Shown: piece after piece, positions 24,116 to 35,615 of the stretch | Layout: each line of letters begins with the position of its first letter | How positions within the stretch are numbered: the stretch's first letter is position 1 | DNA from: Acidobacteriota bacterium | Lineage (GTDB): Bacteria > Acidobacteriota > Terriglobia > Acidiferrales > UBA7541 | Length of the DNA stretch: 45,774 nt | Assembly (NCBI GenBank): GCA_021812285.1 | Contig: JAKAOH010000010.1 | Location: forward strand, 1-45,774 | Direction: 5' to 3' | Program-made: the position numbers and the translations under genes | Notes under the pieces: model-generated | What the model saw: the letters and a program-made list of their open reading frames with translations, nothing else | Databases searched by the model: none | Told to the model about the DNA's origin: nothing

Positions 24116-25147
24116 GTGTCCACCACCTTCTTTGAAAAAACGACGACCGGGCTCCGGTACGACTGGACCCGTGAGGAAATACGAGGCATCTACCAGCAGC
24201 CATTGCTGGACCTGCTCCACCAAGCGCAGCAGACGCACCGGGCTCATCACCCGCCCAATCGCATCCAGACGTGCTGGCTGGTCTCCATCAAGACCGGGGC
24301 GTGCCCGGAGGACTGCGGCTATTGCCCGCAAAGCGCGCACCACAACACAGGCCTGCCGCGGCAGGAATTGATGGACCCGCAGGAGACGATCGCGCAGGCC
24401 CGCCGGGCGAAAGCGAACGGAGCGACGCGATTCTGCATGGGCGCGGCGTGGCGGCAGGCGCCCGAGGGGCGAGAGTTCGAAGCAGTGCTCGAAATGGTGC
24501 GCGGCGTGGCGGCGCTCGAGATGGAAGTCTGCTGCACGCTGGGCATGCTGACGGAAAACCAGGCGCAGCGGCTGAAGGAAGCGGGCCTCACGGCCTACAA
24601 CCATAACCTCGATACCTCGCCTGAGTTCTACGGCAACATCATCACCACGCGCGTTTACGAGGACCGGCTGCGCACGCTCGACTCGGTGAGGCGAGCGGGA
24701 ATCACCGTTTGCTCGGGCGGAATTCTGGGCATGGGCGAAAAAGAAGAGGACCGGATCGGGCTGCTCGAGCAACTGGCGACGCTGCGGCCACATCCGGAAA
24801 GCGTGCCGGTGAACATGCTGGTGCGCGTGGAAGGCACGCCACTCGCGTCGCAACCCGATCTGGATCCGCTGGTGATGGTGCGCACCATCGCGACGGCGCG
24901 CATCCTGATGCCGCGCTCGATGGTTCGCCTGGCCGCCGGACGCAAACAGATGACGCGCGAGGCCTCGGCGCTCTGCTTCCTGGCGGGCGCGAATTCGATT
25001 TTCGTCGGCGAACGGCTGCTGACGACTCCGAATCCGCTGCCCGACGAAGACCAGATGCTATTCCGCGACCTGGGGCTCGAACCGCTCGAAGAGCCGGCGA
25101 CGCGACGCGGGGACGGCGCCGGACCTGCCGCGGCACATGGCGAGTAA
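24116..25147 (+). CDS. bioB: Biotin synthase
   Basis: A 343-residue radical SAM enzyme starting at GTG 24116. It inserts sulfur into dethiobiotin to form biotin. The radical SAM cluster motif is Cys63-x3-Cys67-x2-Cys70 ([13 protein letters not shown]). Ligands of the second, sacrificial 2Fe-2S cluster are visible in [18 protein letters not shown] and ITVCSGGI, with a conserved Arg in [20 protein letters not shown] and [14 protein letters not shown] are family-specific. The C-terminus has an extra Ala/Gly-rich tail. It overlaps bioF by 11 bases. Confidence 0.97.
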
Positions 25148-26321
25148 CGAAAGGCCGCTGCGGGAACGGATTGCCCGCGAACTGAGGGAACGTCGCGAGA
25201 ACGGCCTGCTCCGCACGCTCGACCTGCCAGGCGGAATTTCGCTCTATTCAAACGACTATCTGGCGCTGGCCTCGGATCCGCGGCTGCGCGAGGAGACGAT
25301 TCGCGCTATTCGCGAGACGGGCCGCGTGGGGTCGGGCGGCTCGCGGCTTCTCGGTGGAAATTCCGAGGATTGGGAACGCGCGGAAATGGAATTCGCGGCG
25401 TTCGCGGGAACCGAAGCAGCGATCTATTTCTCCTCGGGATACGCGGCGAACGTCGGTCTGCTCTCGGCCGTGGCGCGGCCGGATGACATTGTTTTTTCCG
25501 ACAGCCTGAATCACGCCAGCCTGATTGACGGCATCCGGCTTTCCGGCGCGCGGAAAGTCATCTATCCGCACGGGGATTTTGCGCGGCTCGAAGAGGAACT
25601 CGATCGGCACCGCAACGAGCGGGGCGCGAAATTCATCGTCACGGAAACCCTGTTCAGCATGGAAGGCGATTTCGCGCCGCTCGGCGAACTGGCGGCGCTG
25701 GGGCGGCGCCATGGCGCGGAACTCATCGTGGACGAAGCGCACGCGGTGGGCGTTTGGGGGCCGCAAGGACGAGGACTTGCCGCCGCGGCGGAGATCGAGA
25801 AGGAAGCGCTGGCCGTGGTGCACACGTGCGGGAAGGCGCTCGGAAGCGCCGGCGCTTTCGTCTGCTCCAGCCGCGTTTTGAAGGAATATCTGGTGAATCG
25901 TGCGCGCACGTTTGTTTTCAGCACCGCGCCTCCGCCGTATCTGGCGGGGCAGATTCGCGCGGCCGTGCGCCTGGCGCGCGGCATGGATGCCGAACGCGCG
26001 CGCCTGGCCGAATTGGCGCGCACGCTGCGCGAGGAATTGCGCGGCCAAGGATTTTCCGCCGGCGCGGGAGCGTCGCAAATCGTGCCGGTCATCGCGGAAA
26101 CGAACGAACGGGCGCTCGCGTGGGCGGAAATCTTGCAGGAAGAAGGATTCGCCGTTCGCGCGATTCGGCCGCCCACCGTGCCTGAAGGAACGGCGCGGCT
26201 GCGATTCTCGCTCACCGTGGCCATCACGCGCGACGAGATCGAGCGCCTCGTCGAAGCTTGCGTGAAGGCACGACGGCGCACGAATTCAGGGTCCGCGCGC
26301 TCGATGGCAAGCCGCGGATAA
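25137..26321 (+). CDS. bioF: 8-amino-7-oxononanoate synthase
   Basis: A 394-residue PLP enzyme of the alpha-oxoamine synthase family, which joins pimeloyl-ACP (or -CoA) with alanine in biotin synthesis. Features are [16 protein letters not shown] at the start, [51 protein letters not shown] and the PLP lysine Lys233 in [11 protein letters not shown]. Length is normal apart from a 12-residue Ser/Arg-rich tail. It starts within the last codons of bioB. Confidence 0.96.
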
Positions 26322-26619
26322 TTTTTATTGAGCCTCGCGGCGTGAGGGAGTACTACCGCGCTCAGCAGCCGGGCCCCCAAAAACGGCCTGCAAGGGCTTT
26401 CCGCTCAATCCGGTCCTATAGGTACAAGGACTTTTCCGCCCAGGAATTGTTAACGAATCAGGAAATTTTTTGACAAACAGGCAATAAGCAAACCCTTATT
26501 AACATAGCTTGTAAGTATTGACAGCAGAGCGACTTAGAGGAAGACTGCTGCAATCGACTCACGCGCGGGGACGGCGACACGAGCTGCCGCTATGTGGCGT
26601 GCTCGGGGGAGAAATTCTA
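26322..26619 (+). promoter_or_regulatory. AT-rich control region inside the bio cluster
   Basis: The 298 bases between bioF and the next gene hold an AT-rich island at about 26445-26525, with TTGACA at 26470-26475 and again at 26518-26523. TTGTTAACG at 26447-26455 and TTTTGACAA at 26468-26476 resemble the two halves of a BirA operator but are only 12 bases apart, less than the known spacing. A matching -10 box is not clear. This suggests an internal promoter for the downstream genes. Confidence 0.4.
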
Positions 26620-27384
26620 ATGGCAACGCAAGGCGAAGTGACGAAAAAACAAGGCGGCTGGTTTTCCGGCTCTCTGACATCATTGAACGTCAGGCCCGAG
26701 AACCCTCGGGCAACGGCTGCACCCTCGCCGAAACCGGAGCAAACCGATTCGGCGACGGAACCGACACCAGCGCCGCAGGCCACGGCTCGTTACCTGACCA
26801 CGAGCGGCATTTTTGAAAGACCGCCCCGGCCGCCAGCATGGAAGGAAGAAGACATGCTTGGGATCGCGCCCGCGCCCGCACCGGCATCGGAGCCGTCGCG
26901 GTTGGTGAATGAATTCCGGTCGTCGCTGATCGAGGCCCGGACTATAGCGGAAGAGGACAGGCCGCGGAAAAGCCGAAAAGGAATCATCGTGGTTGCTGTA
27001 TTGGGCATTCTTCTGGCGGGTACCGCCGCTGCCGTCTATTTGAACCATCCGAAAAAATCCGTGGCGGAGATTCACACGACGAAGGCCTGGGTCGCAAGTA
27101 AATGGAAGGCGGGGATCGCCGAGATTTCCAGCGTTTTTCATTCGCAGGGGAGCGCTCGATCCCGTCTGGAACCGAGCGGCCGGCGCCCATTGAGCCCGCT
27201 TTTGCGAGGGCGGCGATCGGCGAGCCTCGGCGCGGTGCCGACAAGCCTGTGGGAAACGCAGTCGAGTGGAAACGCCGACCACCTCGGTTTCGAGACCACC
27301 GATCCCTTTGGCCGGCACTGGGTGCCCTCGCCGACGGGCCAGCAAGTTGGGCCAACGAATCATCTGGGCACGGTGCTGAAGTAA
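26620..27384 (+). CDS. Unknown single-pass membrane protein between bioF and bioD
   Basis: A 254-residue protein from ATG 26620, preceded by GGGGGAGA. A longer version from TTG 26518 is possible but begins with an Arg-rich stretch and lacks support. Residues 1-125 are Pro/Ala/Glu-rich and probably disordered cytoplasmic sequence. A helix at about 127-148 (GIIVVAVLGILLAGTAAAVYL, preceded by RKSRK) crosses the membrane. The outer part is Ser/Gly/Pro-rich with Trp residues. No family or enzymatic motif is recognised. It lies on the same strand as the biotin genes, but a link to biotin is not shown by its sequence. Confidence 0.6.
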   Translation: MATQGEVTKKQGGWFSGSLTSLNVRPENPRATAAPSPKPEQTDSATEPTPAPQATARYLTTSGIFERPPRPPAWKEEDMLGIAPAPAPASEPSRLVNEFRSSLIEARTIAEEDRPRKSRKGIIVVAVLGILLAGTAAAVYLNHPKKSVAEIHTTKAWVASKWKAGIAEISSVFHSQGSARSRLEPSGRRPLSPLLRGRRSASLGAVPTSLWETQSSGNADHLGFETTDPFGRHWVPSPTGQQVGPTNHLGTVLK

Positions 27385-27605
27385 TCAGGACCCCGCGCGG
27401 GAGCGCCCTGCGCTTAGAGTTCGCCGCCGCGTTCCCGGAAAGAAACGGGCGCACGGCGATCTCAGCTTCCTCCTCGAAGTCTTTCCTTGCGTGCGCCGCA
27501 CGCGAATCGCTCATTCCCCTCGCGCGAGTAACGTAGAATGCCTGAATGCGGACTGAGTTTCGCATGGAGTGACCGCGAATTCGGCAGGGCAAGGGCGAAA
27601 CGGGA

Positions 27606-28235
27606 ATGGAAGGCTTTTTCGTTACCGGGACGGATACGAACGTTGGGAAGACGGTGCTGTCGGCGCTGCTCGTGGCGGCGCTCGACGCGGTGTATTGGAA
27701 ACCGATTCAGACCGGCGCCGGGGAAGGCACCGACCGCGAAACGGTGATGCAGTTGGCCGGAATCGCGCCGGAGCGGACACGGGACGAATCGTATCGGTTC
27801 GATCCACCGGTTTCGCCGCATCTGGCGGCGCGATGGGCGGGCGCGAGCGTCGCGCTTGAGAACATTCGACGGCCTAATCTTCCACCCGGGACGCCGCTGG
27901 TGGCGGAAGGCGCGGGCGGCGCGATGGTCCCGATCAACGAGACGCAGTTCATGACGGACTTGATGCGCCATCTTGGATTGCCTGTGGTCGTCGCGGCGCG
28001 GAGCACGCTTGGGACCATCAATCACACGCTGTTGACGCTCGCGCAGCTCGATCGCGAGGGAATCGAAGCGCGTGGCGTGGTATTGATTGGCCCCGAAAAC
28101 AGCGACAACCGGGAGGCGATCGAGCGGTACGGAGGGCATCGGGTGGTTGGCGCGATACCATGGCTCGACGCCATCAACCGCGAAACATTGATTGCGGTGT
28201 TTCGCGAAAAATTCGATATGCAGGCGTTCCAATGA
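27606..28235 (+). CDS. bioD: Dethiobiotin synthetase
   Basis: A 209-residue ATP-dependent carboxylase that closes the ureido ring of dethiobiotin. Walker A is GTDTNVGKT at residues 8-16; further motifs are YWKPIQTGAGEGTD, FDPPVSPHLAA, LVAEGAGGAMVPI and LGTINHTLLTL, all typical of BioD. The stop overlaps the bioA start (ATGA). Confidence 0.96.
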   Translation: MEGFFVTGTDTNVGKTVLSALLVAALDAVYWKPIQTGAGEGTDRETVMQLAGIAPERTRDESYRFDPPVSPHLAARWAGASVALENIRRPNLPPGTPLVAEGAGGAMVPINETQFMTDLMRHLGLPVVVAARSTLGTINHTLLTLAQLDREGIEARGVVLIGPENSDNREAIERYGGHRVVGAIPWLDAINRETLIAVFREKFDMQAFQ

Positions 28236-29542
28236 GCGAGCTCTGGCTTCCTTTTTATCAGCCGGCGCAGGATCCCGCGCCGCTGCGCATCGCGCGCGGC
28301 GAGGGCGCTTACCTTTTCACCGAAGACGGCCGGCGGCTGGTGGACGCGATTTCGTCGTGGTGGACGAACCTGCACGGGCACAACCATCCGAAGATCATGG
28401 CGGCGATTCGCGAGCAGACCGAACGGCTGGATCACGTCCTGCTCGCCGGATTCACGCACGAGCCGGCCGAACGCCTCGCACAAGGCCTGGGGCGCGTGCT
28501 GCCGAAGAATTTGACGCGCATCTTTTTTTCCGACGACGGCTCGACCGCGGTGGAAGTGGCGTTGAAAATGGCGGCGCAATACTGGCGGAACATCGGACGG
28601 CCGGAAAAACGGCGGATCGTCGCGCTCGAAAACGGCTATCACGGGGATACGGTGGGCGCGATGTCGGTGGGGGACGATTCCGTTTTCACCGAAGCGTTCG
28701 GCTCGATGCTGTTTCCCGTGGAGCGGGCGCACAGCGCGTATTGCTACCGCTGCCCAGTCGGGAAAACGCGCGACGCGTGCCGAATCGATTGCGCCGATCA
28801 TCTCGAGGAGATTCTGGAACGCGGCCGCGGGGAAATCGCCGCCGTGATTCTGGAGCCTCTGGTGCAGGGCGCGAGCGGAATGATCGTGCATCCGGTGGAA
28901 TTTCTGCGGCGGGCGCGCGAAGCATGTTCGCGGCACGATGCGCTTTTGATTGCGGATGAAGTTTTCACCGGATTCGGGCGCACCGGGAAAATGTTCGCGT
29001 GCGAAGTCGCCGGGTTCGAGCCCGATTTGATGTGCCTTTCGAAAGGAATCACCGGCGGGGCGATGGCGCTGGGCGCGACGGCGGCGACAGAACGGATTTA
29101 CGAGGCGTTTCTGGGAGCGGGTCCCGATCGCACGTTTTATCACGGGCATTCGTTCACCGGGAATCCCATTGCGTGCGCCGCGGCGAATGCGAGCCTGGAG
29201 ATTTTCCGGACGGAACCGGTTTTCGAGCGAATCGCCGCGATCACCGCGATTCACCAGGAGCGGCTTGCCGCGCTGCGCGCGCATCCTGCCGTCGGCGATA
29301 CGCGGCAGATTGGCACGATCGCGGCCGTGGAAATCGCCGCGGAAGACGCTGGCTATACGTCGGCCGTGAAGACGGACCTATATCCTTTTTTTCTGGAGCG
29401 TGGAATCTTACTGCGACCGCTAGGCAACGTGATTTACGCCGTGCCGCCGTACGTCATTTCGCCGGAGGAGTTGCACTGCGTTTGGGACGCGATCGGCGAA
29501 GCGATCCATTTCGCCAGAGCGCGAGCAACAGCGAGCGGCTAG
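28232..29542 (+). CDS. bioA: Adenosylmethionine-8-amino-7-oxononanoate aminotransferase
   Basis: A 436-residue class III PLP aminotransferase that makes 7,8-diaminopelargonic acid, the step between BioF and BioD. Motifs are ISSWWTNLHGHNHP near 40, FSDDGSTAVEVALKMA, ENGYHGDTVGAMSVG, LIADEVFTGFGRTGKMFA and the PLP lysine Lys271 in CLSKGITGG (E. coli uses Lys274). The ATG overlaps the bioD stop by four bases; the open frame further up belongs to the bioD region. Last gene of the bio cluster. Confidence 0.96.
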   Translation: MSELWLPFYQPAQDPAPLRIARGEGAYLFTEDGRRLVDAISSWWTNLHGHNHPKIMAAIREQTERLDHVLLAGFTHEPAERLAQGLGRVLPKNLTRIFFSDDGSTAVEVALKMAAQYWRNIGRPEKRRIVALENGYHGDTVGAMSVGDDSVFTEAFGSMLFPVERAHSAYCYRCPVGKTRDACRIDCADHLEEILERGRGEIAAVILEPLVQGASGMIVHPVEFLRRAREACSRHDALLIADEVFTGFGRTGKMFACEVAGFEPDLMCLSKGITGGAMALGATAATERIYEAFLGAGPDRTFYHGHSFTGNPIACAAANASLEIFRTEPVFERIAAITAIHQERLAALRAHPAVGDTRQIGTIAAVEIAAEDAGYTSAVKTDLYPFFLERGILLRPLGNVIYAVPPYVISPEELHCVWDAIGEAIHFARARATASG

Positions 29543-29975: not shown

Positions 29976-30167
29976 GGCAGGTGATTCTACGTGAGCCGAC
30001 GTGCAGCGGCAAATCGGAACTTTGCGCGCGGAGGCGGGTTCGGGGACGCAAGGACCGGAGGAAGGGTAGACTGGAATTGAGCGACGGCGGCCGAGCCGAA
30101 GCGTCCATTTCTCTTCAAGCGAGCGGGAGTGGGCCGGAAGGCATGCGACAGGACCGCCAAAAATGTG

Positions 30168-30198
30168 TTGCAAGCTGACGCTAGGGCAAGGTTTAGCT
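30168..30198 (+). promoter_or_regulatory. Candidate MerR-type promoter with 19-base spacer
   Basis: TTGCAA (30168-30173) and TTAGCT (30193-30198) are 19 bases apart, the elongated spacing typical of promoters activated by MerR-family regulators. Partly symmetrical arms AAGCTGA and TTAGCTT flank the spacer. It lies 18 bases upstream of the MerR gene, implying autoregulation. Confidence 0.45.
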
Positions 30199-30216
30199 TC
30201 GGAGCGAGGCAATGCG

Positions 30217-30807
30217 ATGGCGAACAGATTCACCGTAACCGCGCTGGCGCGGCGCACGGGCGTCAGTTCGAAGGCGATCCGCTACTGGGAAAGCCTGGGG
30301 CTGCTGCCGCGCGCCGAGCGCACACACACTGGTTACCGCGTGTTTCCGCCGGAAACCGACGAATACCTGCGCTTTATCCGCAAATCGAAAGCGATCGGGC
30401 TTTCGCTGCGGGAGATGCGCGAGGTGCTCCGGCTGGCGCGCGCGGGGCGCTGCCCGTGCGAAGAAGTGGTGCGCTGGACCGAAATGCGAACGCGGGAACT
30501 CGAAAACGAGATTCGGCTGCTTTCGCAAACCGTGACCAGACTCCGCCGCAGCACGCGCCAGTGGCGCCGGCAATGCTGCGCGCCGGGCGAGTGCGGCGAA
30601 ATCTGCACGCTCATCGAACATCTGCCTGAATTCGCACCCTCACAAGGAGGAAATCGCAATGAGAAAATGGTGGACTGTTGTGACGACGGCGGTTGCTGCG
30701 ATGGCGCTCACAGCGCTCCCAGTGTTGGCGCAAACGGCCGCGACCTGCTGCCCGAAGTGCCCGCACTGCCCCTGCCACTAAGGGGCAAGCAACAAGGCAA
30801 GCGATAG
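30217..30807 (+). CDS. MerR-family metal-responsive regulator with extended C-terminus
   Basis: A 196-residue protein from ATG 30217. The N-terminal MerR helix-turn-helix is clear (FTVTALARRTGVSSKAIRYWESLGLL, then GYRVFPPETDEYLRFI), followed by a dimerisation helix. Candidate metal ligands are Cys79 and Cys81 (GRCPCEE), Cys120/Cys121, Cys126 and Cys130 (RQCCAPGECGEIC), an arrangement like that of zinc, lead or mercury sensors such as ZntR and MerR. Such regulators normally end near residue 140. Here the frame runs on for over 50 residues through another Cys-rich stretch (DCCDDGGCCDG), and this extra part is overlapped in another frame by a small gene at 30659. The real stop could be changed by a sequencing error. 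Confidence 0.88.
   Translation: MANRFTVTALARRTGVSSKAIRYWESLGLLPRAERTHTGYRVFPPETDEYLRFIRKSKAIGLSLREMREVLRLARAGRCPCEEVVRWTEMRTRELENEIRLLSQTVTRLRRSTRQWRRQCCAPGECGEICTLIEHLPEFAPSQGGNRNEKMVDCCDDGGCCDGAHSAPSVGANGRDLLPEVPALPLPLRGKQQGKR
30659..30781 (+). CDS. Exported 40-residue cysteine-rich peptide nested in the MerR gene
   Basis: From ATG 30659, preceded by a strong CACAAGGAGG site eight bases away, the frame encodes 40 residues ending at TAA. Residues 1-24 form a signal peptide: basic MRKWW, a hydrophobic core, then LPVLA before the cleavage point at Gln25. The mature peptide is QTAATCCPKCPHCPCH, with five Cys and two His in eleven residues, a composition strongly suggesting a metal-binding metallothionein-like or carrier peptide in the periplasm. 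The gene lies wholly within the MerR frame but in a different frame. Co-transcription with the metal sensor suggests a metal-handling role; this is inference. Confidence 0.65.
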   Translation: MRKWWTVVTTAVAAMALTALPVLAQTAATCCPKCPHCPCH

Positions 30808-30830
30808 GGGCGGGCTCGAACCCGCCCCTA
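30805..30830. repeat. Perfect palindromic hairpin, REP-like
   Basis: Arms TAGGGGCGGG (30805-30814) and CCCGCCCCTA (30821-30830) with a 6-base CTCGAA loop. It covers the end of the MerR frame and the stop of the selenoprotein on the other strand. No T-run follows, so it may act as a bidirectional terminator or be one copy of a dispersed palindromic repeat. Confidence 0.6.
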
Positions 30831-31484
30831 CGAATGCGCCATCGCACGGCGCAGCGCCGCGAGAGTTTCCAAAGGATCGGGACGCACGGTGTAATCGGGA
30901 TCGAAAGCGGCGTCGCGGACGACGCCGGCGGGATCAATAACGAAACGCGCGGGCATGGGAAGCTGCCACGAGGAATCGCCGTTGTAGCGCGGCAGATCAA
31001 TTTTCATCAGCGTGTAGACTTCCTTGAGGTCGGCGGGAATATCGAAGACCAGGCCGAACTGGCGCGCGACGCGGTTTTCCGGATCGCCGAGCAGATCGAA
31101 CGTGACGCCGTTTTTCTCCTGGCTGTGGCGCAGGTAGGGCTCGGATTGCGGGGAAATCGCGACAAGCGTCGCGCCGAGCGAATCGAACTGCGGTTTTGCC
31201 GCTTCCAGAGCTGCCAGCTCCAGGTTGCAGTAGGGTCACCAGACGCCGCGATAGAAATTGACGACGAGCGGCCCGCGAGCGAGCAGGTCGCGCGAAGTGC
31301 GGCGCTCACCCTGCGTATTCAAGAGGTCGAATTCCGGCGCGCGGGCGCCCGGCTTCACAACGCGCCGGGCGATGCCCGAATCGCGGAGATCGTCGGTGGC
31401 GCGATGCATGATGCGCACCCAATCGGGATTTCGTTTCGCCTCGCGCTCAGTGCGAAGCGCGGCCAAATCCTCGCGCAAACCCAT
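30828..31484 (-). CDS. AhpC/TSA peroxiredoxin-like selenoprotein, with in-frame TGA read as selenocysteine
   Basis: Read through TGA 31238-31236, the frame encodes 218 residues. The first 82 end in GPLVVNFYRGVW; the TGA is codon 83; then follows PYCNLELAALEAAKPQFDSLG and a full thioredoxin-fold domain (LVAISPQSEPYLRHS, FDLLGDPENRVARQFGLVF, LPMPARFVIDPAGVVRDAAF) to a TAG stop. In homologues this place reads FYRGxWCPYCNLEL, so the TGA replaces the catalytic Cys, giving a U83-P-Y-C86 redox centre. No other interruption occurs. A SECIS-like hairpin follows at 31205-31223. AAAGGAGG precedes the ATG. Likely a peroxidase or thiol-disulfide oxidoreductase in the cytoplasm. Standard gene callers would report only the first 82 residues or a late start. 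Confidence 0.88.
31205..31223 (-). promoter_or_regulatory. Bacterial SECIS-like hairpin
   Basis: In the mRNA, arms CUGGAGCU and AGCUCUGG pair over 8 positions (two G-U pairs) around an apical GGC loop. The loop begins 21 bases after the UGA, within the 16-37 base window of bacterial SECIS elements, and starts with G as required for SelB recognition. Confidence 0.75.
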
Positions 31485-31657
31485 CGTTTCGCCTCCTTTG
31501 GCAGCGCGCCGGGGAAACTCCGGCCGCGGCGAACCAAACCAGCATAGCGAAAACGGCGCGGTTCGCGCGAGCTTCGCCGCGCCACGCGGCTCGCCGGTGG
31601 TGTAGAATCCCGGCGATGTTTCGGAAGCTGCGAGTGTGCAACCGGGAGGGGGCTGAG

Positions 31658-33142
31658 ATGAACGCGCGACGCGGATTGGGGATTTGCGCGACGGGAGCAG
31701 CCATAGCGGCGCTCTTTCTGTCGGGGGCGTGGGCGCAGACGCCGCAAAAAACGAAGCAACCGGCTAAAATCACGCCGGGAAACAATCAGGGCATGAAATG
31801 CACGATCGCCAACGGGTTCACGCTGGCTTCGGTGGGCGACCTGATTTTGAACCAGCCGACATCGAACCTGGCCGATCCGCGATTTCAGGCGGCGATCCAT
31901 GTGATCCAGCACGCCGACGCGGGCTTCGGCAATTTCGAAGGGTCGGCGTTCGATATCCGGACGTTCAAAGGCTATCCGGCGGCGGAAAACGGCGGGGCAT
32001 GGCTGATCGATTCGCCGCTGGTGCCGGCGGATATCAAGCGGATGGGCATCGACATCGTTTCGCGGGCGAACAATCACGCGACCGATTGGGGCATCCAGGG
32101 AATGGAAGCGACCAGCCGGCTGCTGACCAAGGCGGGAGTGGTCTATGCGGGCGAGGGCAAGAATCTGAGTGCGGCGCAAGCGGCGCATTTCCTGGCAACG
32201 CCGGAGGGTCGCGTGGGGATCGTTTCGATCGCGTCCTCGTTCACGCCGATGTCGCGCGCGATGGATGCGTTGGGCGCGGCGCCGGGGCGGCCGGGAGTGG
32301 ACGGGCTGCGAACGACGGCGTACATCGTGGTGCCGAAGGGCGTTTTCGACCAGGTGCGGTCGCTCTATCAGGAAATTTACGACGAGATGCCGAAAGCCGA
32401 ACAGGAACAGACGCCCAAAGAAAAGAATCCGAACGTGGTGAACCTGTTCGGGCAGCGATTCAAACTGGGCGAAAAGCCGGGCATTTCGTTCAAGATGAAC
32501 GAATCGGACGTGAAGGGGATTCTGAAGGCGATCCGGCAGGGCAAGGAAAATTCCGATTTCGTGATCGCGACGATCCACACGCACGAGCCGGGAAACTGGA
32601 GCGACGTTCCTCCCGATTTTCTGCCGAAGCTGGCGCATGAAGCGATCGACGCCGGCGCCGACGAATTCATCGGCCACGGGCCGCACCAACTGCGCGGAAT
32701 CGAAATCTACAAGGGCAAGCCGATTTTCTATTCGATGGGAAATTTCTTTTTCGAGTCGTCGATGGAATCGCCGGTGGGGATGGATGAATACGAGGAGTGG
32801 CACCTGAATCCCGCCACGACGACCGACGAGGAGCAGAACGCGGCGCTCGACAAGAAATGGTTCACCGGGCGGCGGTGGTACGAGAGCGTCGTCGCAGTGA
32901 GCCGGTTCGAAAACGGCAAAGTGGCGGAAATCCGGCTGTATCCGGTAACGCTGGGCGCGATGCGCCGCGCTGCCGACCGCGGCGTGCCGAAAATGGCTTC
33001 GCCGGCCGAAGCGCACCGCATTCTGGCGCGGCTCCAGCGGCTTTCGGCTCCTTACGGCACGAAAATCACGATCGAAGGAACGATCGGCATCATCCGGCCG
33101 ACGGCGAGCCAGGAAAGCGGAACGCCTTCGGACGAGAACTGA
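31658..33142 (+). CDS. CapA-family (poly-gamma-glutamate synthesis type) metallophosphatase-like protein, exported
   Basis: A 494-residue protein from ATG 31658 with GGGAGGGGG upstream. Residues 1-26 form a signal peptide (ending SGAWAQ). The CapA-type fold is indicated by TLASVGDLILNQP, FGNFEGSAFDIR, VSRANNHATDWGIQGMEAT, FVIATIHTHEPGNW, ADEFIGHGPHQLRGIEIYKG and IFYSMGNFFFE, all metal-site motifs of this family. CapA proteins take part in polyglutamate capsule formation in Bacillus, but most homologues have unknown roles. No capB or capC is nearby. It lies 80 bases upstream of the penicillin-acylase gene. Confidence 0.88.
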   Translation: MNARRGLGICATGAAIAALFLSGAWAQTPQKTKQPAKITPGNNQGMKCTIANGFTLASVGDLILNQPTSNLADPRFQAAIHVIQHADAGFGNFEGSAFDIRTFKGYPAAENGGAWLIDSPLVPADIKRMGIDIVSRANNHATDWGIQGMEATSRLLTKAGVVYAGEGKNLSAAQAAHFLATPEGRVGIVSIASSFTPMSRAMDALGAAPGRPGVDGLRTTAYIVVPKGVFDQVRSLYQEIYDEMPKAEQEQTPKEKNPNVVNLFGQRFKLGEKPGISFKMNESDVKGILKAIRQGKENSDFVIATIHTHEPGNWSDVPPDFLPKLAHEAIDAGADEFIGHGPHQLRGIEIYKGKPIFYSMGNFFFESSMESPVGMDEYEEWHLNPATTTDEEQNAALDKKWFTGRRWYESVVAVSRFENGKVAEIRLYPVTLGAMRRAADRGVPKMASPAEAHRILARLQRLSAPYGTKITIEGTIGIIRPTASQESGTPSDEN

Positions 33143-33221
33143 TCGCAGAGTGCGGCCGCGCCGGACGTCCAGGAATCGCGTTCGCGAAAAACACGGCACG
33201 ATGGAAAGAGCGGAGGTGGTG

Positions 33222-35615
33222 ATGAAACGGAGATCATCGCTGCTGGTCGTGATCCTGATGGGAGTCCTGTGCGCGAGCGGCGAGGCGCTGGCGCCGCAAC
33301 AGACGCGGCTCGCGACCCAGGCGCGGGCCACGCTTTCCACCTTGCAAGGCACGCTGAAATTGCCGGGCTTGCGCGCACCCGTCACCGTAATTCGCGACCG
33401 GTGGGGCGTGCCGCACATTTACGCGCAGAACGAGCACGACCTGTTTTTCGCGCAAGGGTACGTGGCCGCGCAAGACCGGCTGTTTCAAATGGAATTGTGG
33501 AAACGGTCCGGGCAGGGACGCCTGGCGGAAATCCTCGGTCCATCCGCGTTGCCGCGCGATGTTTACGCGCGGCTGCTCGAGTATCGCGGGAACATGCAGG
33601 CGGAATACGCCAGCTATTCTCCCGATACTCACCGCATCCTGGAGGCTTTCACCGCGGGCATCAACGCCTACATCGCTCGCCGGATGGCGCCCGGCGGAAA
33701 AGGATTGCCGATCGAATTTCGCATCGCCGGATTCAAACCCGAGCCGTGGCGGCCGCGGGACTGCCTGAACCGGATGGCGGCGTTTTCGATGATGAACAAC
33801 GCCATCGGCGAATTGCAGCACGCGGAGGCGGTCGCGAAGCTGGGCGTCGCGCGCGCCGACAAACTGTTCGATCTCGACCCACACGTCGAATTCGATCCCG
33901 CGCCGGGCGTGGATTACGCCGGACTATCGCCGAAATTGCTGACCGGACTCGTCGGCACCGACACGCGAATCGGTTTCCCACGGGACACGCTCGAAGGCAG
34001 CAACGATTGGGCGGTTTCCGGCAAGATGACGACGACCGGGATGCCGCTGCTCGCGAACGATCCGCACCGCGTGCTGGCCGAGCCGTCGCTGCGGTACATG
34101 GTGCAACTGGTCGCGCCGGGTTGGGACGTGGAGGGCGCGGGCGAGCCGGCGTTGCCCGGCGTCGCCGTGGGCCACAACCGGCACATCGCGTGGGGATTCA
34201 CGATTTTCGGCGAGGATCAGGAAGATTTCTACGTCGAGCAGCTGAATCCGCGCGATCCGCTGGAATACAAAACACCCAGCGGCTGGGCGCGAATGAAAGT
34301 GATTCGCACGACGTTTCACGTGCGCGGGCGGCCGGACGTGACGATGGATTTGAAATTCACGCGGCACGGACCGGTGCTGTGGTCCGACGGGCATCGCGCG
34401 CTCGCTTTGCGCTGGATCGGCGCCGAGCCGGGCACGGCCGGATATCTGGGAGCGCTCGCCGTGGATCGCGCGGAGAATTGGGCACAGTTTGAGGCGGCGA
34501 CGGCGCGATGGAAAGTGCCTTCGGAAAATCTGGTGTACGCCGATACGAAGGGCAATATCGGCATGTACTCCGTGGGGCTCGCGCCGATCCGGAAAAACTG
34601 GACGGGATTGCTGCCCGTGCCCGGCGACGGCAAATATGAATGGGCAGGATTCGTGCCCGATTCCGAATTGCCGCACAGCTTCAATGGCGAGTGCCATTGG
34701 TGCCTGCGGCCGGCGTTGCATTACACCGCTTCCGCGAATCAGCGAATGATTCCGGAAAATTATCCGTACAAGATCGGATTCCTCTGGGCGCCAGGATCTC
34801 GCTATCGGCGGATCCTGCAGGTGCTGGGGCGGGACTGGAAGAGCGGCCGGAAAGTCAGCGTCGCGGACATGGAGAATTTGCAGAACGACCAGGTCTCGCT
34901 TCCCGCGCGCGCGCTGCTGCCGATGCTGCGGCGCGCGATTGGGCCAAATCCCACGCCAGCGCAAAAATTGCTCGCCGGGTGGAATGGCGTGGTCAATACG
35001 GGCGCGGCGCCGGCGTTATTCGAGCTGTGGTTGCGCGGCTTGACACGAGTGGTGCGATTGCGCGTGGTACCGGGAGCAGATGAAGTGCCTGCCGCATGGC
35101 CGTCGCCACTTTTGCTGAAATATTTGTCGCATCCAACCGCGGCTGTTTTTGGAGCCAATCCCGTCGAAGGGCGCAATCGCGTGATGCTCCAGGCGCTGCG
35201 GGCTGCCCAAGAGAAGCTCGAACGGCTGCAAGGCCCTAATCCGGCGAAATGGTCCTGGGGCGAATTGCACACACTGACGTTTCGCAATCCTCTCGACGCG
35301 CTGCCCGGCTCGCGGGCGCTGCTGGATGAGGGACCCATTCCGCGACCGGGGGACGATTACACGATTGACGCGCAGTATTTCAACGGCCCGGGGCCGTTCC
35401 GCGTGCTGGCAGGATCGAGTTACAAGGAAATTTTCAGTCTGGCGAATTGGGACGGGTCCGTGGCAATCAACGTCCCAGGGCAAAGCGGGCAGCCGGCGAG
35501 CCCCGATTACCGCAATCTGCTGCCGCTGTGGCGCACGGGGCGATATTTTCCGCTCGCGTTTTCGAAAAAGGCGGTGGGAAAGGCCGCCGCGCAAAAACTC
35601 GTCCTTGAGCCGTAG
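33222..35615 (+). CDS. Penicillin acylase family protein (Ntn hydrolase)
   Basis: A 797-residue exported protein from ATG 33222, with GGAGG five bases upstream; an ATG at 33201 is less well placed. A signal peptide covers about residues 1-24. The alpha chain region has VTVIRDRWGVPHIYAQNEHDLFFAQGYVAAQDRLFQME. The autocatalytic nucleophile is Ser260 in EGSNDWAVSGKM, the start of the beta chain, followed by LLANDPHR and later GNIGMYSVG. The family hydrolyses amides such as penicillins, acyl-homoserine lactones or aculeacin; the substrate here is unknown. Quorum quenching or cell-wall amide recycling are possible. Length is normal for the family. Confidence 0.94.
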   Translation: MKRRSSLLVVILMGVLCASGEALAPQQTRLATQARATLSTLQGTLKLPGLRAPVTVIRDRWGVPHIYAQNEHDLFFAQGYVAAQDRLFQMELWKRSGQGRLAEILGPSALPRDVYARLLEYRGNMQAEYASYSPDTHRILEAFTAGINAYIARRMAPGGKGLPIEFRIAGFKPEPWRPRDCLNRMAAFSMMNNAIGELQHAEAVAKLGVARADKLFDLDPHVEFDPAPGVDYAGLSPKLLTGLVGTDTRIGFPRDTLEGSNDWAVSGKMTTTGMPLLANDPHRVLAEPSLRYMVQLVAPGWDVEGAGEPALPGVAVGHNRHIAWGFTIFGEDQEDFYVEQLNPRDPLEYKTPSGWARMKVIRTTFHVRGRPDVTMDLKFTRHGPVLWSDGHRALALRWIGAEPGTAGYLGALAVDRAENWAQFEAATARWKVPSENLVYADTKGNIGMYSVGLAPIRKNWTGLLPVPGDGKYEWAGFVPDSELPHSFNGECHWCLRPALHYTASANQRMIPENYPYKIGFLWAPGSRYRRILQVLGRDWKSGRKVSVADMENLQNDQVSLPARALLPMLRRAIGPNPTPAQKLLAGWNGVVNTGAAPALFELWLRGLTRVVRLRVVPGADEVPAAWPSPLLLKYLSHPTAAVFGANPVEGRNRVMLQALRAAQEKLERLQGPNPAKWSWGELHTLTFRNPLDALPGSRALLDEGPIPRPGDDYTIDAQYFNGPGPFRVLAGSSYKEIFSLANWDGSVAINVPGQSGQPASPDYRNLLPLWRTGRYFPLAFSKKAVGKAAAQKLVLEP

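Follow-up and report, generated by a model that had tools for sequence, protein, structure and literature searches.

Peroxiredoxin-like (Prx-like) selenoproteins with selenocysteine (Sec) in a UxxC motif are known from studies of the Sargasso Sea and of Geobacter (PMC1088965, PMC1794560). They were also tallied in the GOS data (PMC2398784), and a 2026 review lists them as 'predicted with high confidence' (PMC13188914). The initial annotation of the locus studied here had likewise called Prx-like proteins an established class of bacterial selenoproteins. Table 1 of the same review also gives a UxxS form, the cd02970 peroxiredoxin-like selenoprotein (PMC13188914). For the Acidobacteriota, four selenoproteins in three families have been reported (PMC1794560), along with three selenoprotein genes in Occallatibacter riparius (PMC12013277). 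Here, we examine a Prx-like gene in a 45,774-nucleotide stretch of an Acidobacteriota genome (the window, meaning the whole stretch that was analysed). The gene is new; the category to which we assign it, Prx-like (UxxC) selenoproteins, has been known since 2005.

The predicted protein shares with the Prx-like thiol:disulfide oxidoreductase selenoproteins (PF00578, UxxC) an AhpC/TSA domain, Sec in place of Cys as the first residue of UxxC, and a bacterial SECIS directly 3' of the UGA. Relative to the described UxxC proteins, including WP_010940744.1 and all compared by description only, this Acidobacteriota lineage has a W-U-P-Y-C-N-x-E-L site, a helical N-terminal extension and a frozen SECIS core of its own. 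The cd02970 protein is likewise a peroxiredoxin-like AhpC/TSA protein with Sec at motif position one, but is set apart by its motif, UxxS rather than UxxC. Selenocysteine peroxiredoxins (PF00578, TxxU; PrxU, NF040737) also have the AhpC/TSA fold, and the source genome encodes two genes of the TxGU type, but the Sec of PrxU replaces the peroxidatic Cys, which corresponds to the C86 position here, and not the first CxxC residue. Finally, homologues from Bradyrhizobium, Burkholderiaceae, Pseudomonas and cyanobacteria share 42-52% identity along almost their whole length and have the same motif (WCPYCNLEL), but carry Cys for Sec and are without the SECIS core. The gene and its ten relatives add a well-supported selenoprotein to the Acidobacteriota, for which we found few selenoproteins in the literature. 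With 11 Sec versions, 107 Cys versions and a frozen SECIS core, the set is a handy system for studying what SelB requires of its hairpin, and also suits asking why Sec takes the place of the N-terminal Cys in CxxC.

A Prx-like gene with one in-frame TGA

The gene occupies 30828..31484 on the minus strand and runs from ATG to TAG, encoding 218 residues including U83. Translation of 31484-30828 on the minus strand gives a single internal stop, TGA at codon 83 (31236..31238, minus), with 82 residues before it and 135 after, exactly the single interruption and both counts given by the initial annotation. The TGA is predicted to encode Sec as the first residue of U-P-Y-C within W-U-P-Y-C (local context GVW-U-PYCNLELAALEAAKPQF); by alignment, the second redox residue of the UxxC motif is C86 (TGC, 31227..31229, minus). 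A strong Shine-Dalgarno sequence, AAAGGAGG (31492..31499, minus), lies 7 nt upstream of the ATG, and purine-rich sites resembling it also precede the orthologues. The read-through protein matches PF00578 (AhpC-TSA) with 96.7 bits (1.2e-27; gathering cut-off 26) over residues 46-191, so that the domain spans the TGA. Together with the terminal TAG, this match bears out the earlier description of an intact frame with a conserved domain and a normal stop. There is no disabling change besides the TGA, which stands alone at the Cys column with frame and domain intact on either side, arguing for Sec decoding. The AlphaFold model points the same way: it is confident (mean pLDDT 96.3) and has Bcp, AhpE and ResA among its closest solved folds, the best matches being the Bcp and AhpE peroxidases. 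Annotation software that takes TGA for a stop would output an 82-residue fragment.

The TGA is found at the identical codon in 5/5 genomes of the genus, source genome included, with the other four orthologues 70-90% identical in amino acids to the window protein. One of these four is also found as MAG contig JAKASX010000015.1. Wider searches recovered six further TGA genes, 40-52% identical and spread over four families of the phylum. Three belong to the same family (two genes in G238, one in G183), while G289, G311 and G580, from other families, contribute one each. Such conservation, across five genomes of a genus and six distant genes, supports Sec decoding. We compared this Sec set of 11 genes in 10 genomes with 109 other non-redundant homologues, in which codon 83 is TGC or TGT in 107 and GAC (Asp) in two; U83 thus aligns with Cys in 107 homologues, confirming that the TGA sits at the Cys column. 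The two Asp homologues, L067 (G180) and L069 (G098), read R-G-R-W-D-P-Y-C and keep the second Cys. C86 is invariant in a 37-row alignment.

The codons 3' of the TGA are under purifying selection. In comparisons across the five genomes of the genus, the sequence before the TGA has dN/dS of 0.19-0.58 and the sequence after it 0.16-0.38; the similarity of the two ranges indicates that the part after the TGA is translated and constrained, evolving as coding sequence.

A SECIS-like hairpin and the selenocysteine machinery

Folding and conservation identify a bacterial SECIS-like hairpin at 31205..31223 (minus), CUGGAGCU-GGC-AGCUCUGG. In the folded RNA, an 8-bp stem carries an apical GGC loop that begins 20 nt past the UGA. 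The published bSECIS model has a UGA-to-loop distance of 16-37 nt (PMC13188914), and the window hairpin, with its GG apical loop at +20 nt, fits that range. A core, GGAGCUGGNNGCUC, with the GG loop 20 nt past the UGA, occurs in the hairpins of all 11 Sec genes. The core GGAGCTGGNNGCTC is found at the same position in 11/11 Sec genes, even where protein identity has fallen to 40%, and in 0/107 Cys genes, a contrast that argues for Sec decoding although the Sec sequences are related to one another; among Cys genes that encode the identical E-L-x-A-L residues, the count is 0/59. The conserved degenerate codons beneath the hairpin are identical at 6/6 within the genus, versus 37/109 elsewhere, and when the window was compared at the nucleotide level with the distant locus in G183, only the 68 bases around the UGA and the hairpin were recovered. 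When the same peptide was recoded synonymously, ~10% of recodings gave an equally good hairpin, so the argument from the hairpin leans on its conservation instead. Mean folding energies (-13.6 kcal/mol for Sec contexts, -11.5 for Cys contexts) are uninformative taken alone, and no Rfam family reached its gathering score anywhere in the window.

The initial annotation had named absence of the sel genes as grounds for giving up its reading. Instead, the source genome has a tRNA-Sec (67.4 bits, cut-off 47; called tRNA-SeC with anticodon TCA by ARAGORN), SelA (565 bits, cut-off 268), SelB (368 bits, cut-off 242) and SelD (361 bits, cut-off 125), and its SelD gene has one in-frame TGA of its own, in an A-G-U context. 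The presence of all four in the same genome, with SelD itself interrupted in this way, favours Sec decoding. So does the distribution of SelA, which is above cut-off in 10/10 genomes with the TGA form versus 10/28 with the Cys or Asp form (38 genomes; hypergeometric count ~4e-4, which is not a proper probability, as five of the ten genomes are one genus). Other TGA-containing redox genes of the same genome bear hairpins with GG-type apical loops, which also supports Sec decoding.

We considered whether the TGA might be a true stop, in a gene that is being lost. A TGA within a frame is formally a stop, and most genomes of the family are without a close homologue of the gene (8/89 have one). Against a nonsense mutation, 11 genes from 10 genomes share the TGA at this codon, the sequence downstream is under purifying selection, nothing else in the gene is disabled and the Sec machinery is complete. 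We therefore rejected a pseudogene, on the shared TGA, the downstream constraint and the machinery, as extremely improbable; the recurrence of the codon and the selection beyond it likewise uphold the earlier view that the TGA is no random nonsense mutation. A sequencing or assembly error that converted TGC or TGT to TGA might be suspected in a fragmented source assembly (282 contigs, 91% complete), but further assembled genomes show the same codon, contig JAKASX010000015.1 among them, and the distant Sec genes share both TGA and hairpin. With the same TGA in sister genomes and distant genes, we rejected such an error, the chance of which is negligible.

Decoding of TGA as Trp or Cys occurs in other lineages, and homologues have Cys at the aligned position, as might be expected if the codon were read through or reassigned to an amino acid other than Sec. 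In this clade, however, TGA acts as a stop, and several orthologues end in it; a tRNA-Sec with a UCA anticodon is present with SelA, SelB and SelD; and a position-specific hairpin goes with the TGA. On these grounds, we rejected reassignment as very unlikely. We conclude from the sequence evidence that the TGA at codon 83 is almost certainly decoded as Sec, and the proposal that the gene encodes a selenoprotein, made initially from the letters of the window, now has behind it a Cys-aligned TGA, a full set of Sec machinery genes and a SECIS-like hairpin present in 11/11 Sec genes. Given the gene, machinery genes, hairpin and conservation observed, we infer that SelB would recognise the GG-loop hairpin 20 nt past the UGA and bring Sec-tRNA(UCA) to the ribosome at UGA codon 83.

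Redox site and history of the Sec form

The initial annotation had placed the TGA at 'the catalytic cysteine'. It is indeed a redox-motif position, but U83 is the first residue of UxxC, and in alignments the equivalent of the peroxidatic Cys is C86. Profile alignments with 2ywn, 5epf and 2cx3 put C86 on the peroxidatic Cys of the Bcp/AhpE-type TxxC and U83 on its Thr, and the TxxU peroxiredoxins of the same genome align with Thr at 83 and Sec at 86. Aligned with ResA, U83 corresponds to the leading Cys of CxxC. The PxxxT(S)xxC signature of true peroxiredoxins is absent from NFYRGVWUPYC: compared with 2ywn, 5epf and the TxxU genes of the same genome, U83 stands in place of the Thr, and there is no Pro four residues ahead of it. 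Scores against the NCBIfam models NF040769 (36.3, cut-off 120) and NF040737 (22.6, cut-off 270) place the protein outside the SelL-related and PrxU families. The positions of U83 on Thr and of C86 on the peroxidatic Cys thus indicate a UxxC Prx-like enzyme rather than a PxxxTxxU peroxiredoxin. As the predicted protein combines an AhpC/TSA domain with UxxC (U83-P-Y-C86), the criterion for Prx-like UxxC selenoproteins, we suggest that it is best called a Prx-like (UxxC) selenoprotein.

The product would be a redox enzyme with a thioredoxin fold and a W-U-P-Y-C site. Judging from family and motif, U83, the N-terminal residue of UxxC, most likely makes the attack on the substrate, a peroxide or a disulfide; C86 may resolve the intermediate as a selenenylsulfide, and a thioredoxin-type reductant may then open it. 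We would give this sequence of steps an even chance of being correct in its details. The selenoprotein could also be a thiol:disulfide oxidoreductase of the ResA/TlpA kind and not a peroxidase, a plausible reading to which we assign somewhat less than an even chance. The CxxC-type motif, the presence of ResA among the closest solved sequences and folds, and the lack of PxxxTxxC, with U83 in the Thr position, speak for an oxidoreductase, whereas the Pfam match is to AhpC-TSA and the best folds are the Bcp and AhpE peroxidases. ResA/TlpA proteins are extracytoplasmic, but the N-terminus here has no apparent signal peptide or membrane anchor, as judged by eye.

In a 68-row tree, which involves long branches, the Sec genes are scattered over several positions close to Cys genes, with four changes between the forms, two of them forced by the starred branches. 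A single Sec clade is without support in this tree, yet an AU test does not reject it (p = 0.158). Sec may be ancestral in the Acidobacteriota Prx-like group, with one old Sec gene repeatedly lost or reverted to Cys, whether or not SelA was lost too; we hold this view tentatively and think it rather unlikely. If true, the SECIS core (GGAGCUGGNNGCUC) would have changed hardly at all as the protein diverged to ~40% identity, making this a case of a SECIS sequence outlasting the protein sequence around it.

Neighbouring genes and other selenoprotein candidates

Beside the selenoprotein gene lies an apparent biotin synthesis cluster (24116-29539, plus strand) with BioB-like (radical SAM and BATS domains), BioF-like, BioD-like (AAA_26) and BioA-like genes; a BioA-like gene is also adjacent in G001 (L013). 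It is followed by a MerR-family regulator (30163-30807, plus), conserved in L152 and L154, whose C-terminal part is rich in Cys (CPCEE, CCAPGEC, CCDDGGCC). The end of the MerR ORF is overlapped, in a different frame, by an ORF convergent with the Prx-like gene and encoding a tiny, secreted-looking Cys/His-rich peptide, MRKWWTVVTTAVAAMALTALPVLAQTAATCCPKCPHCPCH (30659-30781, plus), preceded by AAGGAGG; similar peptides occur in L152, L153 and L154. On the other side, divergent from the selenoprotein gene, are a PGA_cap capsule-type protein (31616-33139, plus) and a penicillin amidase family protein (33150-35612, plus; 705 bits).

Further selenoprotein candidates were seen. In G004, 2.7 kb from the orthologue L011, the likely Sec gene L014 (G004:C111:8136-8462) encodes an AhpC/TSA domain and a weakly DsbD_N-like C-terminal part, with a W-U-P-F-C motif and the hairpin GCAGCU-GGUCG-AGCUGC; we saw no orthologue of this gene in the window. 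The source genome itself likely encodes Sec forms of two classical peroxiredoxins and of a deiodinase-like protein. The two peroxiredoxin genes, L171 and L172 (G000:C21, G000:C28; relatives L018, L023, L024, L025 and L028), have TGA at the peroxidatic Cys position (FTEGU, TPGU). The FTEGU gene has the hairpin GGCAUAUCA-GGC-UGAUAUGCC, and in the FTxGU group a 9-bp hairpin with a GGC loop is nearly identical in five genomes. The candidate resembling iodothyronine deiodinases, L181 (G000:C5:5421-5855; PF00837, 127 bits), has the motif FGSYT-U-PPF and, 3' of its TGA, a perfect hairpin, GAGAUU-GGA-AAUCUC (GAGATT-GGA-AATCTC in DNA).
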